64,000 nucleotides of DNA from Synergistales bacterium (GCA_018433595.1 JAHDQY010000046.1:1-64000), one strand, 5' to 3'. Counted from the first letter of the stretch, positions 21,898-26,384 are shown. The notes: generated by a model not told the origin, from the letters alone. Translations and numbers: made by a program.

Positions 21898-23532
21898 TCA
21901 GGCTCCGCGCCTTGTCAGGAGCAGACCCAGAGGAAGAGCCAGGAGAAGGAAGGCTGAAAAGGCCCCGGAGCCGGTGGAGCAGCCGCCTCCACCGGCTCCG
22001 GCGGGCATGTCGGGGTTGACGCGGGCCGGCCCGGTAAAGGCCTTGAGGCAGACATTGGCGTTGTTCACGACGGCGGTCAGGTCCGTCCAGTAATCGCCGT
22101 GCTGGCTGATGAAGCTCTGGCCGGCTCGTGCCGTCGCCTTGTCGCTGTACCCTGCTTCCGGATACTCCAGGGGGATCGGGGAGCCGTAGCCGGGAGTGGT
22201 GAGCCGCACCACGACGGCGAAGGGATCGCCCCCTTTCAGGATGACCTCCTCGGGAAGGCGGATCGTGTGGTAACCGGCAGCGGCCAGCTTCCCGTCGAAC
22301 TCGGCGGCGAGGATGCCGCCCCGGGGGTTATGGCCTGCGGCGCCGATGTAAACCTCGATATGGTAGGAGGCGCCCGACTGTCCGGCGTAGAAGGAGACGG
22401 CCTTGAGGGCCTCCGTCTCGGAGCCGGAGGCGGTGAAGACGTTGGCGAACCAGGCCGTATCGCCGCCGTAGCCGGAGGAGTCGACCCAGCCCAGCGGATC
22501 GTACTGGTAGACGCGGCTGAAATTCGTTGCGTCGCTCCCGATGAAGAGGGTGGCCTGACTGACCGTCGGGTCGGCGTAGGAGAGCCAGAAGCAGCCTTTG
22601 TCGCCCCACTCCGTCCCCCAGCTGTTCTTGACGAGCCAGGCTCCGTCTTGTCCCGGATTGACGGCGAAACGCCCGGCAGGGAAGCTGTCGTCCCAGCCGA
22701 TGATCGTGACGATGTGGCCGGTGCCGTCGGCGAGCGGGTTGCAGTAGCTGTTCTCTCTCGGATCGAAGGCCCGGGGGTCCCAGAGCAGGCGGATGGCCAT
22801 GGCGCCATGAGCCATGAGGGCCTTTTTGATCGTCTTTCCGTCGGCGGGAGGCTGGTCCTTGTTGTCGAGAAAAAGAACCTGCTCCAGGTGTTTCGATACG
22901 GGGTCCGCTGCCTTCGGCCTGGCTGATTCCGGCCAGGGTTTCGCGTTCTGATAGGGACGGTCCGCTTCGTCGACGGTCCCCGTCCACCGGGCCAGAAGGG
23001 CCGTCGACATCCAGGGATGACCTCCCGGATCGAAGACGGGGTCTTCTCCGGGCCTGACGGGCTGGGGCGTGAAAGCCGGCAGCGAAGGACTCTCGTCGAC
23101 GTAGGCGAAGTAGGCCAGGTGCCATTCGGAGAAGTCGAAGGTCCCCTTGCCGGCCTTCCTGAAGGTCGATTCAAGGGAGGCCAGAGCGCCGTGAGCCCAG
23201 CAGGTGCCGTAGGGGACCTGGTCTCGTACGGCCGTTACGGCATCCTGCTCGCGCAGGTCGTACCGGCGGGGCGGCGCCGCGGCGGTTTCGAAAAAGTCCG
23301 CTGCCGGTGCCCTGACGTGAGAGAGATCGAGGGGGCCGGGCCGGTAGCCCAGAGGGCACCCTGCGGCTGCGGCCGCGCTCAGGGCCGGCTTTGCCGCTTC
23401 CTCCCGGCACTTCAGAAACTCGGGGTTGAGCGGCGCGAGCCGGAGCGCTTCGGCGAAGGCTCCGGAGGAGAGAGTGACTAAAAACAGCGCTGTCAGAAGC
23501 GGGAGGAAGAGGGAAGAACGAAACCGACTCAT
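21898..23532 (-). CDS. Secreted papain-family (C1) cysteine protease with Synergist-CTERM tail, copy 1
   Basis: 544 residues. Signal peptide 1-27 (SSGAFA/EA). The papain core begins near 91 (YDLREQDAVTAVRDQ). Catalytic residues are present: Gln105, Cys111 in YGTCWAHGA, His273 in TGHIVTIIGWDD and Asn303 in VKNSWGTEWG. Residues about 330-510 form a beta-rich lectin-like region common in bacterial C1 proteases. The tail is GGGGC, a hydrophobic helix and Arg-Arg, matching the Synergist-CTERM sorting signal, so the enzyme is probably processed and displayed on or released from the surface. No classical I29 propeptide is seen. It is 60-65 percent similar by eye to the next protease gene and lies downstream of it. 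Confidence 0.9.
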   Translation of the reverse strand: MSRFRSSLFLPLLTALFLVTLSSGAFAEALRLAPLNPEFLKCREEAAKPALSAAAAAGCPLGYRPGPLDLSHVRAPAADFFETAAAPPRRYDLREQDAVTAVRDQVPYGTCWAHGALASLESTFRKAGKGTFDFSEWHLAYFAYVDESPSLPAFTPQPVRPGEDPVFDPGGHPWMSTALLARWTGTVDEADRPYQNAKPWPESARPKAADPVSKHLEQVLFLDNKDQPPADGKTIKKALMAHGAMAIRLLWDPRAFDPRENSYCNPLADGTGHIVTIIGWDDSFPAGRFAVNPGQDGAWLVKNSWGTEWGDKGCFWLSYADPTVSQATLFIGSDATNFSRVYQYDPLGWVDSSGYGGDTAWFANVFTASGSETEALKAVSFYAGQSGASYHIEVYIGAAGHNPRGGILAAEFDGKLAAAGYHTIRLPEEVILKGGDPFAVVVRLTTPGYGSPIPLEYPEAGYSDKATARAGQSFISQHGDYWTDLTAVVNNANVCLKAFTGPARVNPDMPAGAGGGGCSTGSGAFSAFLLLALPLGLLLTRRGA

Positions 23533-23565
23533 GGCGGATTCACGTGCCTTTCATATGTGGGATTC

Positions 23566-23618
23566 TCCGTCGGGGCGAAAAGCCCTTCGGGAGGATGCCG
23601 ATCCGGCCCGTTTTGGCG
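23566..23618 (-). promoter_or_regulatory. Conserved leader block of protease copy 1
   Basis: This segment of the 5' leader is clearly similar to 25597-25657 in front of copy 2: both read CGCCAAAACG, GGCCGGA-CGGCA-CC, a small hairpin around GGGCTT/GGCT, then CCCGACGG. It could be a shared RNA element, or just DNA carried along in the duplication. Confidence 0.45.
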
Positions 23619-23748
23619 TTTCAGCAGCTGTCGGAGGATTGAGCCGAGCGAGGCAGGCCATGAGGAGCGGCGCAAGAGAGCAGAAACCGCAACGGAACAT
23701 CGTCGTATTTAATGTTTCGGCACGACAAATTAAGCGGAATGCGACCAG

Positions 23749-23777
23749 ATTATAACAGCTCATTTTAGGTCTGTCGA
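23749..23777 (-). promoter_or_regulatory. Promoter of protease copy 1
   Basis: Reading leftward TCGACA (23777-23772), 17-nt spacer, TATAAT (23754-23749). The local sequence is AT-rich, unlike the surroundings. It gives a leader of about 210 nt before the ATG at 23532. The rest of the 370-nt gap holds this leader and the terminator of copy 2. Confidence 0.7.
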
Positions 23778-23845
23778 TATTAATAAAACAATCTCCTGCT
23801 CTTGAATGGGCGCCGATTGTCGGTTCGGTGCAGGGAAGGCATGAA

Positions 23846-23876
23846 GAGGGAGGTCCCCCTCAGGAGAACCTCCCTC
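23846..23876 (-). terminator. Hairpin after protease copy 2
   Basis: GAGGGAGGT (23846-23854) and ACCTCCCTC (23868-23876) form a perfect 9-bp stem with a 13-nt loop, 27 nt after the copy 2 stop. No strong U-tract follows. Confidence 0.55.
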
Positions 23877-23902
23877 CATCCTGTCCGCGGAATCTCCCGG
23901 GA

Positions 23903-25561
23903 TCAGCGTCTTCTGAGAATCAGCGTCAGAGGAGCGGCCAGCAGCAGAAGGGCCGTCAGGCCGCCGGTGCCGAGGTCGCAGCCGCCGCCACCGCCGCCGG
24001 AGGCGGGGACATCGGGATCGACAGGGACGTCGGGATCGACGGGCTCGGAGGTCATCGGCCCCGTGAAGGCCTTGAGGCAGACGTTGGCGTTGTCTGCGGC
24101 GGCGGTCAAGTCAGCCCAGGACGTGCCGTCGAGGCTGATGAAGCTCTGGCCGGCTTGTGCCGTTGCCTTGTCGCTGTACTCGGCCTCCGGATACTCGATG
24201 GGGATGGGGAAGTTGTAGCCCGGCGTCGTCAGACGCACCACGACGGCAAAGCGCTCGCCCCTGACGAGAGGTACTTCGGGCAGACCGACGGTGTGGTAGC
24301 CGGCTGTGGAAAGCGTGCTTGCCGACGATGCGGCCAGGGATCCGCTGCGAGGGGAGCTGGCGGTAACGCCCGTGTAGACTTCGATCCGGTAGGAGGTGCC
24401 CGATTGGCCGGCGTAGAAGGAGACGGCCTTGAGAGCCTCCGTCTCGGAGCCGAGGCCGGAGGCGGTGAAGACGTTGGCGAACCAGGCCGTCTCGTTCCCG
24501 TAGCCGTAACTGCCAATCCAGCCGAGCGGATCGTACTGATAGACGCGGCTGTAGTTCGCCTTGTCCGCTCCGACGAAGATGGCGGGGTATCCCAGGGTGA
24601 CGTCGGCGTAGGAGAGCCAGAAGTAGCCCTCGTTGCCGAAAACCGTCCCCCAGCTGTTCTTGACGAGCCAGGCACCGTTTTGTCCCGGATTGACGGCGAA
24701 ACGCTCGGCGGGGAAGCTGTCGTCCCAGCCGACGAGGGTGACGATGTGGCCTCCCCCCGGAGTTTCTTCTGGCGCGTAGTAAGCGGCATTCTCGACGCTG
24801 AAGAAGGAGTCTCTCCACTCCATCCGGAAGGCCACGGCGCCGTAGGTCATGATGGCTCTTTTGATCGATGGGGCGTCGAAATCGTTGCCGACTTTGAGGA
24901 GGTGAACCTGCTCCAGGTGTTTCGACACGGCGTCTGCAGCCTGGGGCGTGCTCTCCGGAGGCCAGGGGGTCACGTTCTGGTAGGGACGGGCCGCTTCGTC
25001 GACGGCCCCTGTCCATCGGGCGAGGAGGGCCGTCGCCTGCGATACATTGCCTCCCTGGTCGAAGATGGGGTCGTCGCCGTATTCGGCGGCGCGCTGCGTG
25101 AATGCCGGCAGGGAGGTGCTCTCGTCGACGTAGGCGAAGTAGGCCAGGTGCCATTCGGAGAAGTCGAAGGTCCCCTTGCCGGCCTTCCTGAAGGTCGATT
25201 CAAGCGAGGCCAGGGCGCCGTGGGCCCAGCAGGTGCCGTAGGGGGCCTGGTCCCGGACGGCTGTTACGGCTCCCTCTATCCGCAGGTCGTAGCTGGCCGG
25301 CAGCGTTGCGGCGGATTCGAGGAACTCCGGCTCCGGTGCCCTGACGTGGGAGAGGTCGAGAGGGCCGGGCCGGTAGCCCAGTGGGCGCCCTTCGGCGGCG
25401 GCCGTCTTCAGGGCCGGGTCTGTCGCCTCCTCCCGGTATTTCAGGAACTCGGGGTTGATCGGGGCGAGCCGGGACGTTCCGGCGAAGGCCACAGAGGCGA
25501 CAAGAAGGAGAAGCAGGGCCGTCAGGAGCGGTCGAGCGAGTGACGAGCGGAATCGACGCAT
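23903..25561 (-). CDS. Secreted papain-family (C1) cysteine protease with Synergist-CTERM tail, copy 2
   Basis: 552 residues. Signal peptide 1-27 (ASVAFA/GT). Gln105, Cys111 (YGTCWAHGA), His272 (GHIVTLVGWDD) and Asn302 (VKNSWGTVFG) complete the papain catalytic set. A lectin-like beta region follows, then a Pro-Val-Asp-Pro-Asp repeat linker (PVDPDVPVDPDVP), six Gly, Cys, a hydrophobic helix and Arg-Arg-Arg: the Synergist-CTERM tail. An 86-nt run (25119-25204) is identical to 23090-23175 in copy 1. It lies 112 nt downstream of the chagasin-like inhibitor gene in the same direction, so enzyme and inhibitor are probably co-transcribed. Start: ATG 25561 with an upstream GAAAGGAAAG. Confidence 0.9.
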   Translation of the reverse strand: MRRFRSSLARPLLTALLLLLVASVAFAGTSRLAPINPEFLKYREEATDPALKTAAAEGRPLGYRPGPLDLSHVRAPEPEFLESAATLPASYDLRIEGAVTAVRDQAPYGTCWAHGALASLESTFRKAGKGTFDFSEWHLAYFAYVDESTSLPAFTQRAAEYGDDPIFDQGGNVSQATALLARWTGAVDEAARPYQNVTPWPPESTPQAADAVSKHLEQVHLLKVGNDFDAPSIKRAIMTYGAVAFRMEWRDSFFSVENAAYYAPEETPGGGHIVTLVGWDDSFPAERFAVNPGQNGAWLVKNSWGTVFGNEGYFWLSYADVTLGYPAIFVGADKANYSRVYQYDPLGWIGSYGYGNETAWFANVFTASGLGSETEALKAVSFYAGQSGTSYRIEVYTGVTASSPRSGSLAASSASTLSTAGYHTVGLPEVPLVRGERFAVVVRLTTPGYNFPIPIEYPEAEYSDKATAQAGQSFISLDGTSWADLTAAADNANVCLKAFTGPMTSEPVDPDVPVDPDVPASGGGGGGCDLGTGGLTALLLLAAPLTLILRRR

Positions 25562-25596
25562 GACGCATTCACTTTCCTTTCTCTAAAATGAGATGG

Positions 25597-25657
25597 TCCG
25601 TCGGGCCGGAAAGCCTTCCGGGTGGGTGCCGGTCCGGCCTGTTACGCCGTTTTGGCG
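25597..25657 (-). promoter_or_regulatory. Conserved leader block of protease copy 2
   Basis: Counterpart of 23566-23618. Here the hairpin is stronger: CCGGAA, GGCT loop, TTCCGG. It lies in the gap between the inhibitor gene and protease copy 2, 36 nt before the start codon. Confidence 0.45.
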
Positions 25658-25673
25658 GGAGATCCTTTCGCGA

Positions 25674-26300
25674 CTAGCGGACGGTCAGGGCGAGCACGTG
25701 ATAGCGGGCCGGCGAGACGGGCTTCTCCCAGGGGCGGAAGTAGCCGAGGACGACGACGGCCTCTCCTCTTCCCGCGGCTTCGAAGGTCCAGACTTCCGTG
25801 CCTCCCCGTCCCGACAGGGGAGGAAGGGAGGCGTCGACCTGCTGCGGCGCTTCCATTCCCCTTTCGACCAGCCGGGCCGTCGATTCCCTGCCCGGGTTCA
25901 TGAGGGACCAGCCGTAGCCTGTCGACGGGTTGGAGGAGAGGTGCGAGAGGTGCCGTGCTCCCCTTTTGAGGGAGACGTGTTCCAGACTCAGGAGAAGGTC
26001 CCCCTTTTCGGGGAAGCGCAGACCGTCGGCACGCGCCGACGGGTGCCCCGCAGGACTGAACCGGACGGCGAAAGAGGAACCGGGATTGAGGCCGGCGAGG
26101 GAAAACCTCCCCTCATCGTCGGTGACAGCTCTGTAGTTGTTCCGGCCGTCCCAGACGCTGATCGGGGTTCCCGGCGAAGGCATCCCTTCCCCGTCGGTGA
26201 CGATCCCTTCAAGGATCGCTCCGGCGCTTTGGGCGGGGGCGGCTGCGGCAAGAGAGAAAAAGAAAGCGGCAAGAAGCGATAGAGTCAGAAAATTCCTCAA
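25674..26300 (-). CDS. Secreted CarboxypepD_reg-like domain fused to chagasin-family (I42) cysteine-protease inhibitor
   Basis: 208 residues from TTG 26300 (AAGGGGTG Shine-Dalgarno). Signal peptide 1-24 (hydrophobic, AAAAPAQS). Residues about 29-80 look like a CarboxypepD_reg/Cna-B-type beta-sandwich (EGIVTDGEGMPSPGTPISVW, then TDDEGRFSLAGLNPG). Residues about 105-208 carry all three inhibitory loops of chagasin: NPSTGYGW (124-131), GRGGTEVW (164-171) and FRPW (188-191). Chagasins block papain-like proteases by inserting these loops in the active site. The two genes immediately downstream encode exactly such proteases. Function is therefore probably protection of the cell or control of these enzymes. 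A longer frame back to 26435 would span the promoter and is not used. Confidence 0.85.
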   Translation of the reverse strand: MRNFLTLSLLAAFFFSLAAAAPAQSAGAILEGIVTDGEGMPSPGTPISVWDGRNNYRAVTDDEGRFSLAGLNPGSSFAVRFSPAGHPSARADGLRFPEKGDLLLSLEHVSLKRGARHLSHLSSNPSTGYGWSLMNPGRESTARLVERGMEAPQQVDASLPPLSGRGGTEVWTFEAAGRGEAVVVLGYFRPWEKPVSPARYHVLALTVR

Positions 26301-26355
26301 AAGGCAACACCCCTTCAGATGTGTGTTAGTTGCAGTTTTATTTGATGTGATTTGA

Positions 26356-26384
26356 ATCATAGCGAACGACTTAAAGTCGGTCAA
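26356..26384 (-). promoter_or_regulatory. Promoter of the inhibitor-protease cluster
   Basis: Reading leftward TTGACC (26384-26379), 17-nt spacer, TATGAT (26361-26356), 56 nt before the TTG start of the inhibitor gene. Confidence 0.75.
26367..26379. promoter_or_regulatory. Palindrome in the promoter spacer
   Basis: CGACTTAAAGTCG: two 6-bp arms around a central A, lying between the -35 and -10 boxes and touching the -35. A bound repressor would block RNA polymerase. No regulator is assigned. Confidence 0.45.

Follow-up and report, generated by a model that had tools for sequence, protein, structure and literature searches.

The window analysed here, a 64,000-nucleotide stretch of DNA from a Synergistales bacterium, contains a gene for an exported chagasin-type (I42) inhibitor followed by genes for two exported papain-family (C1) proteases, A and B. 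These genes probably form a protease/inhibitor module, in which the exported inhibitor would protect the cell from matured surface proteases of its own. The module is supported by the linkage of the two gene types in 13 of 188 Synergistota genomes, the specificity of this linkage for one protease clade, co-distribution in 12 of 12 genomes, tree congruence, and intact inhibitory loops and catalytic residues. What the analysis establishes directly is the genes and their domains, the intact motifs and predicted fold, and the linkage, co-distribution and co-inheritance. The first-pass annotation of this DNA had described an exported 208-residue protein with three chagasin loops and two exported C1 proteases with intact Gln, Cys, His and Asn residues; this is confirmed, and the genes lie on the minus strand.

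The source genome (2.53 Mb in 72 contigs, 99.65% complete) encodes one I42 protein and three C1 proteases, each with a Lectin_like domain. In the direction of transcription the gene order is inhibitor, protease A, protease B (Table 1). The sequence GAAGGGG precedes the TTG start of the inhibitor gene. The third C1 protease is unlinked: it neighbours a family-3 glycoside hydrolase on contig C18, and the inhibitor is not adjacent to it.

Table 1. Features of the inhibitor and protease genes, in order of transcription; positions are those of the window.
Feature	Position	Strand	Description
Promoter-like site 5' of inhibitor gene, TTGACC-17-TATGAT	26356..26384	-	Consensus scan, 10/12 matches; first base 26384, the end coordinate of the first-pass annotation
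Inhibitor gene	25674..26300	-	208 aa; TTG start at 26300; signal-peptide-like hydrophobic N-terminus; lipobox cysteine absent
CarboxypepD_reg / transthyretin-like N-domain	25968..26216	-	Residues 29-111; PF13620, E 6e-8; 5aq0_B, TM 0.70, 2.9 Å
Chagasin (I42) domain	25704..25943	-	PF09394, E 2.8e-15; chagasin 2nqd_A, TM 0.73 on target, 2.5 Å
Loop L2, NPSTGYGW	25908..25931	-	Residues 124-131
Loop L4, GRGG	25800..25811	-	Residues 164-167
Loop L6, RPW	25728..25736	-	Residues 189-191
Leader of protease A	25562..25652	-	Duplicated unit (blastn), common to protease B
Protease A	23903..25561	-	552 aa: signal peptide, Cwp84-type propeptide, Peptidase_C1, Lectin_like, GGGC-hydrophobic-Arg tail
Propeptide of protease A, Cwp84-type	25304..25480	-	Residues ~28-86; G62 and P65 invariant
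Peptidase_C1 domain of protease A	24608..25303	-	Contains Q105, C111, H272, N302
Lectin_like domain of protease A	24062..24544	-	Pfam PF18560
Promoter-like site of protease B, TCGACA-17-TATAAT, extended -10	23749..23777	-	Consensus scan, 11/12 matches
Protease B	21898..23532	-	544 aa; architecture as A; 68% identical to A (tandem duplicate)

Linkage was surveyed in 188 Synergistota genomes, and the loci were then read gene by gene. I42 is present in 34 of these genomes and Lectin_like in 108. An I42 gene lies directly upstream of a C1-Lectin_like gene, on the same strand, in 13 genomes from five families (f1: G000, G021, G022; f4: G017, G018; f5: G024, G025, G042; f6: G111, G112, G113; f11: G002, G004). 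G043 has the same order with a subtilase in between. The stop and start codons of the two genes overlap in G111 and G113 (TGATG) and in G004 (ATGA); in the other linked genomes the gap ranges from 19 to about 420 bases, and in G024 and G025 it contains a terminator-like hairpin. Neighbouring genes vary among families, and the I42-protease pair is retained. The C1-Lectin_like gene behind I42 in G004 (L098:5879-7073, minus strand) is split into two overlapping frames, from either a pseudogene or a sequencing error.

Linked proteases are concentrated in one lineage. In a tree of 63 C1-Lectin_like proteins, 16 of them I42-linked, 15 of the linked proteins fall within one clade of 17 (SH-aLRT 100); other paralogues of the same genomes lie outside it. 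The linked/unlinked label changes three times on the tree, compared with 14.4 times in shuffles. The clade's two unlinked members belong to G022 and G023, both of which are genomes with I42; the G023 copy, on contig C9, contains an in-frame TAG. When all 188 genomes were searched with protease A, a clade-level match (at least 480 bits) was found in 12, and all 12 have I42, compared with 22 of the 176 others (Fisher p 2e-10, which overstates the association because the genomes are related by descent). The clade pattern and the agreement between trees carry more weight as evidence.

The inhibitor tree agrees with the tree of linked proteases (Mantel r 0.84, p 1e-4). Both place G021 and G022, which belong to the same genus as the source genome, with f6 and away from the source's own sequences; a caveat is that each tree has long branches that meet, and that the inhibitor tree is moderately supported (80/92). 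A departure from taxonomy shared by inhibitor and protease is expected of a unit that is inherited or transferred together. The protease/inhibitor pair proposed in the first-pass annotation is thus borne out across Synergistota, where I42 and one C1-Lectin_like clade are linked, co-distributed and co-inherited; the pattern it had set against a pair, protease loci consistently without the inhibitor, does not hold for the linked clade. The pairing may have more than one origin, since the linked protease of G112 (a MAG, 66% complete) comes from another clade and the I42 gene of f11, which encodes no N-domain, precedes a divergent C1 gene.

The clade pattern already disfavours the notion that adjacency reflects only an ancestral neighbourhood with no functional connection, which we regard as highly improbable. 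I42 is kept near a hemL-like neighbour in G023 (L069) and near a gmhA-like neighbour in G003 (L097), and in both it lacks the C1 protease that adjoins it in relatives; synteny is similar, so adjacency is not obligatory, as this notion would allow. However, the pair stays together while flanking genes vary between families, the adjacent protease of G112 belongs to another clade, and I42 is present in every genome that bears the clade, even where the clade copy is unlinked.

The linkage does not extend to C1-Lectin_like proteases in general. Most such proteases have no I42 nearby, and a general coupling was rejected. Of the 79 loci drawn from the genome collection, only two have an I42-like frame within about 6 kb: L146, the G042 locus already in the Synergistota set, and L163, an archaeal (Methanospirillaceae) MAG in which the frame is at a contig end. 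Outside Synergistota, I42 occurs anywhere in the genome in 7 of 26 genomes with a C1-Lectin_like protease, mainly methanogens. Within Synergistota, many I42 genes are located away from any C1 gene; G028, G134, G136 and G167 each have I42 and no C1 match, so some Synergistota I42 proteins must serve another role. G137 has a tandem pair of I42 genes (L092:7181-8036, plus strand) with no N-domain and no protease beside them.

I42 genes in genomes without a C1 gene are also what would be expected if the inhibitor targeted foreign cysteine proteases, from neighbours, prey or a host, and the locus were common only as a set of extracellular-proteolysis genes. There is precedent for such targets in the tomato proteases acted on by Cip1 of Pseudomonas syringae, and most Pseudomonas have no C1A proteases (PMC5014320). 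Subtilase and M6 protease genes are also present at several of the loci. However, this explanation predicts neither stop/start overlaps nor congruent trees, and linkage that is confined to one C1-Lectin_like clade, to the exclusion of other paralogues of the same genomes, is equally unexpected. It is therefore considered unlikely, and a module directed at the cell's own proteases is preferred.

The inhibitor exceeds Pfam cut-offs only for Inhibitor_I42 (56.8 bits, cut-off 27.2) and CarboxypepD_reg (33.4 bits, cut-off 32.3); a staphostatin-type domain is not matched. All three chagasin loops are present: NPSTG corresponds to L2 (NPTTG), GRGG to L4 (GXGG) and RPW to L6 (RPW/F). Serine occupies the position of chagasin Thr31; the T31S substitution in chagasin is near-neutral, with a Ki for cruzipain of 11 pM compared with 7.6 pM for wild type (PMC2607524). 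An AlphaFold2 model of the inhibitor (pLDDT 89.1, pTM 0.79) resembles chagasin from its complex with cathepsin L, and the N-domain of the model resembles the transthyretin-like domain of carboxypeptidase D (Table 1). A hydrophobic N-terminal helix is predicted at residues 2-19. The N-domain is found in the I42 proteins of f1, f4, f5, f6 and genus g36 of f8; it is absent from those of the remaining f8 members and f11. Unlike the 208-residue inhibitor, the I42 proteins of G021 (L067:7811-8455, plus strand) and G022 carry a cysteine close to where the signal peptide ends (LLFASCSAAEG), a possible lipobox.

Both proteases begin with a hydrophobic stretch and match Peptidase_C1 (E 9.6e-23 for A and 2.8e-19 for B) and, C-terminal of it, Lectin_like (E 5.6e-52 and 176.5 bits for A; E 8.6e-50 and 169.4 bits for B), a domain which the first-pass annotation had not named. 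Cell-wall-binding repeats (PF04122) are found in neither by the Pfam scan. Q105, C111, H272 and N302 (protease A numbering) are invariant across 22 homologues. Among solved structures, Clostridioides difficile Cwp84 is nearest; the protease model (pLDDT 83.1, pTM 0.82) matches Cwp84 4ci7 with a TM of 0.84 and 22-24% identity in the structural alignment. The C-terminal tails, similar to Synergist_CTERM (TIGR04564), score 20.5 (A) and 12.6 (B) bits against it, both under the cut-off of 22.5; despite this, G526-G527-C528 of the tail is invariant in 22 of 22 homologues. No paper on Synergist-CTERM was found in the open-access literature searched.

It had been suggested at first pass that the proteases lack a classical inhibitory propeptide and that the inhibitor may take its place. 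The first part stands insofar as a classical I29 propeptide is absent, but a conserved Cwp84-type propeptide is present. In a profile of 22 relatives, a 58-residue segment behind the signal peptide aligns with the Cwp84 propeptide, where NGVIPFPHEM of Cwp84 lies opposite a conserved G-x-x-P-x-P motif. The Cwp84 propeptide occupies the active-site groove in the crystal structure, around Asn64-Ile67 and Pro70-Glu72 (PMC4089489). The protease model aligns to the pro-form 4ci7_B over 496 columns and to cleaved 4d59 over 436, a difference consistent with a propeptide seated as in Cwp84; the propeptide is ordered in the model at residues 31-50 and 61-70. Alignment and model together suggest that the propeptide lies in the active-site groove. 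The motif is equally conserved in those paralogues of the 22-sequence alignment that have no linked inhibitor. The inhibitor as a substitute for the propeptide was rejected on these grounds. A Cwp84-type propeptide is conserved whether or not a paralogue is linked to I42, so that action of the inhibitor on the matured enzyme is more likely than a propeptide-like role.

From these features we infer inhibition, localisation and a protective purpose. Proteases A and B would be exported as Cwp84-type zymogens with their own propeptide in the active-site groove. Once matured, they would be retained at the cell surface, probably by the conserved GGGC-hydrophobic-Arg tail. The exported I42 protein would then reversibly block the matured enzyme, its three loops (NPSTG, GxGG and RPW) wedging over the catalytic cysteine, and would thereby shield the cell envelope from the cell's own proteases or time their action. 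A more elaborate version can be offered only tentatively, and is rather doubtful: a dedicated bacterial chagasin/protease self-protection cassette that is inherited as a unit and has at times moved between families, its transthyretin-like domain making an additional contact, such as one with the lectin-like domain, that confers specificity for the cognate clade over other C1-Lectin_like paralogues in that cell.

Several points count against the module. The zymogen is already kept inactive by its propeptide, I42 occurs in some genomes that have no C1 gene, a terminator-like hairpin separates the genes in G024 and G025, and protease B is possibly transcribed separately. The lectin-like domain of Cwp84 deepens the groove (PMC4089489); an equivalent effect in the present proteases could hinder a chagasin. 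It is also conceivable, though very unlikely, that the I42 protein mainly assists the proteases in folding or maturation, for instance by keeping hold of them while they are exported or sorted, and that inhibition comes second. Such a helper would suit the upstream position of the I42 gene in the operon, the need of Cwp84 for its propeptide in folding, and the added N-domain, which has no known role. However, the inhibitory loops are conserved in sequence and spacing, which is unnecessary for a pure chaperone, and members of the protease clade occur away from the inhibitor gene, though in genomes with I42. Inhibition of the matured enzyme remains the preferred reading.

The 112-base gap between the inhibitor and protease A has no promoter-like site on the minus strand in a consensus scan, whereas protease B has its own; co-transcription with the inhibitor is thus more plausible for protease A, and B may be transcribed separately, bearing in mind that such sites are consensus matches and that a match alone is no evidence of function. 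In view of this site, and of the many Synergistota I42 genes located away from C1 genes, the first-pass term "self-contained" is too strong for the system. Proteases A and B are 74% identical over the leader and the 5' end of the gene (blastn), with about 90 bases of leader in common. Nothing convincing resembles this leader elsewhere in the genus. A common regulatory leader was rejected, since the sequence is restricted to A and B and is a trace of their duplication. Searches of the leaders for riboswitches and other known RNAs gave weak matches only, under the gathering scores.

Other protease genes are also found at these loci. Subtilase genes adjoin I42 at four loci of family f5 (L075, L077, L078 and L079), and L078 also has an M6 metalloprotease gene; the locus in several relatives thus has the appearance of a secreted-protease island. 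A free-standing exported protein of 137 residues is encoded directly before a subtilase at L084:5523-5936 (-), L082:4315-4728 (+) and L081:6607-7020 (-). It has no Pfam match, and is 35% identical to the prodomain of that subtilase over 114 columns (E 4e-10). With the subtilase it may make up another protease/inhibitor pair at these loci, or one in which it assists folding.

The inhibitor has the domain, loops and predicted fold of the chagasin/ICP family (MEROPS I42), which includes T. cruzi chagasin, P. aeruginosa ICP (2wgn) and P. syringae Cip1. It differs from this family by its fusion to an N-terminal transthyretin-like domain. Pseudomonas chagasins likewise have a signal peptide; in contrast to them, the inhibitor gene adjoins candidate target proteases. 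In most Pseudomonas genomes with a chagasin a C1A protease is absent, and foreign targets have been argued (PMC5014320). The same 2016 paper reports a bacterial chagasin that targets plant proteases, and notes that no role had been worked out for bacterial chagasins (PMC5014320). No report of an endogenous chagasin/protease pairing in bacteria was found in the open-access literature searched. The present locus is the opposite of the Pseudomonas situation, in that genes for candidate endogenous targets adjoin that of the chagasin. For endogenous control by a bacterial chagasin, it offers a concrete pair together with an unlinked paralogue from the same genome as a control.

Proteases A and B share with Cwp84 the combination of C1 and Lectin_like domains and a non-classical propeptide; they differ by having no cell-wall-binding repeats in the Pfam scan, by their GGGC-hydrophobic-Arg tail, and by linkage to an I42 gene. 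The staphopain/staphostatin systems also co-encode a secreted papain-like protease with its inhibitor. Staphostatins have a different fold, act in the cytoplasm, and are encoded 3' of the protease gene; the present inhibitor, in contrast, is an I42 protein, is predicted to be exported, and is encoded upstream. AprA/AprI, the SMI metalloprotease/inhibitor pairs and the Tannerella potempins combine an exported inhibitor with a co-encoded exported protease, and envelope protection has been proposed for them; their protease classes and inhibitor folds differ from those of the present pair. The best reading is that the module operates like these known co-encoded protease/inhibitor pairs, but with an inhibitor that belongs to I42 by its features.
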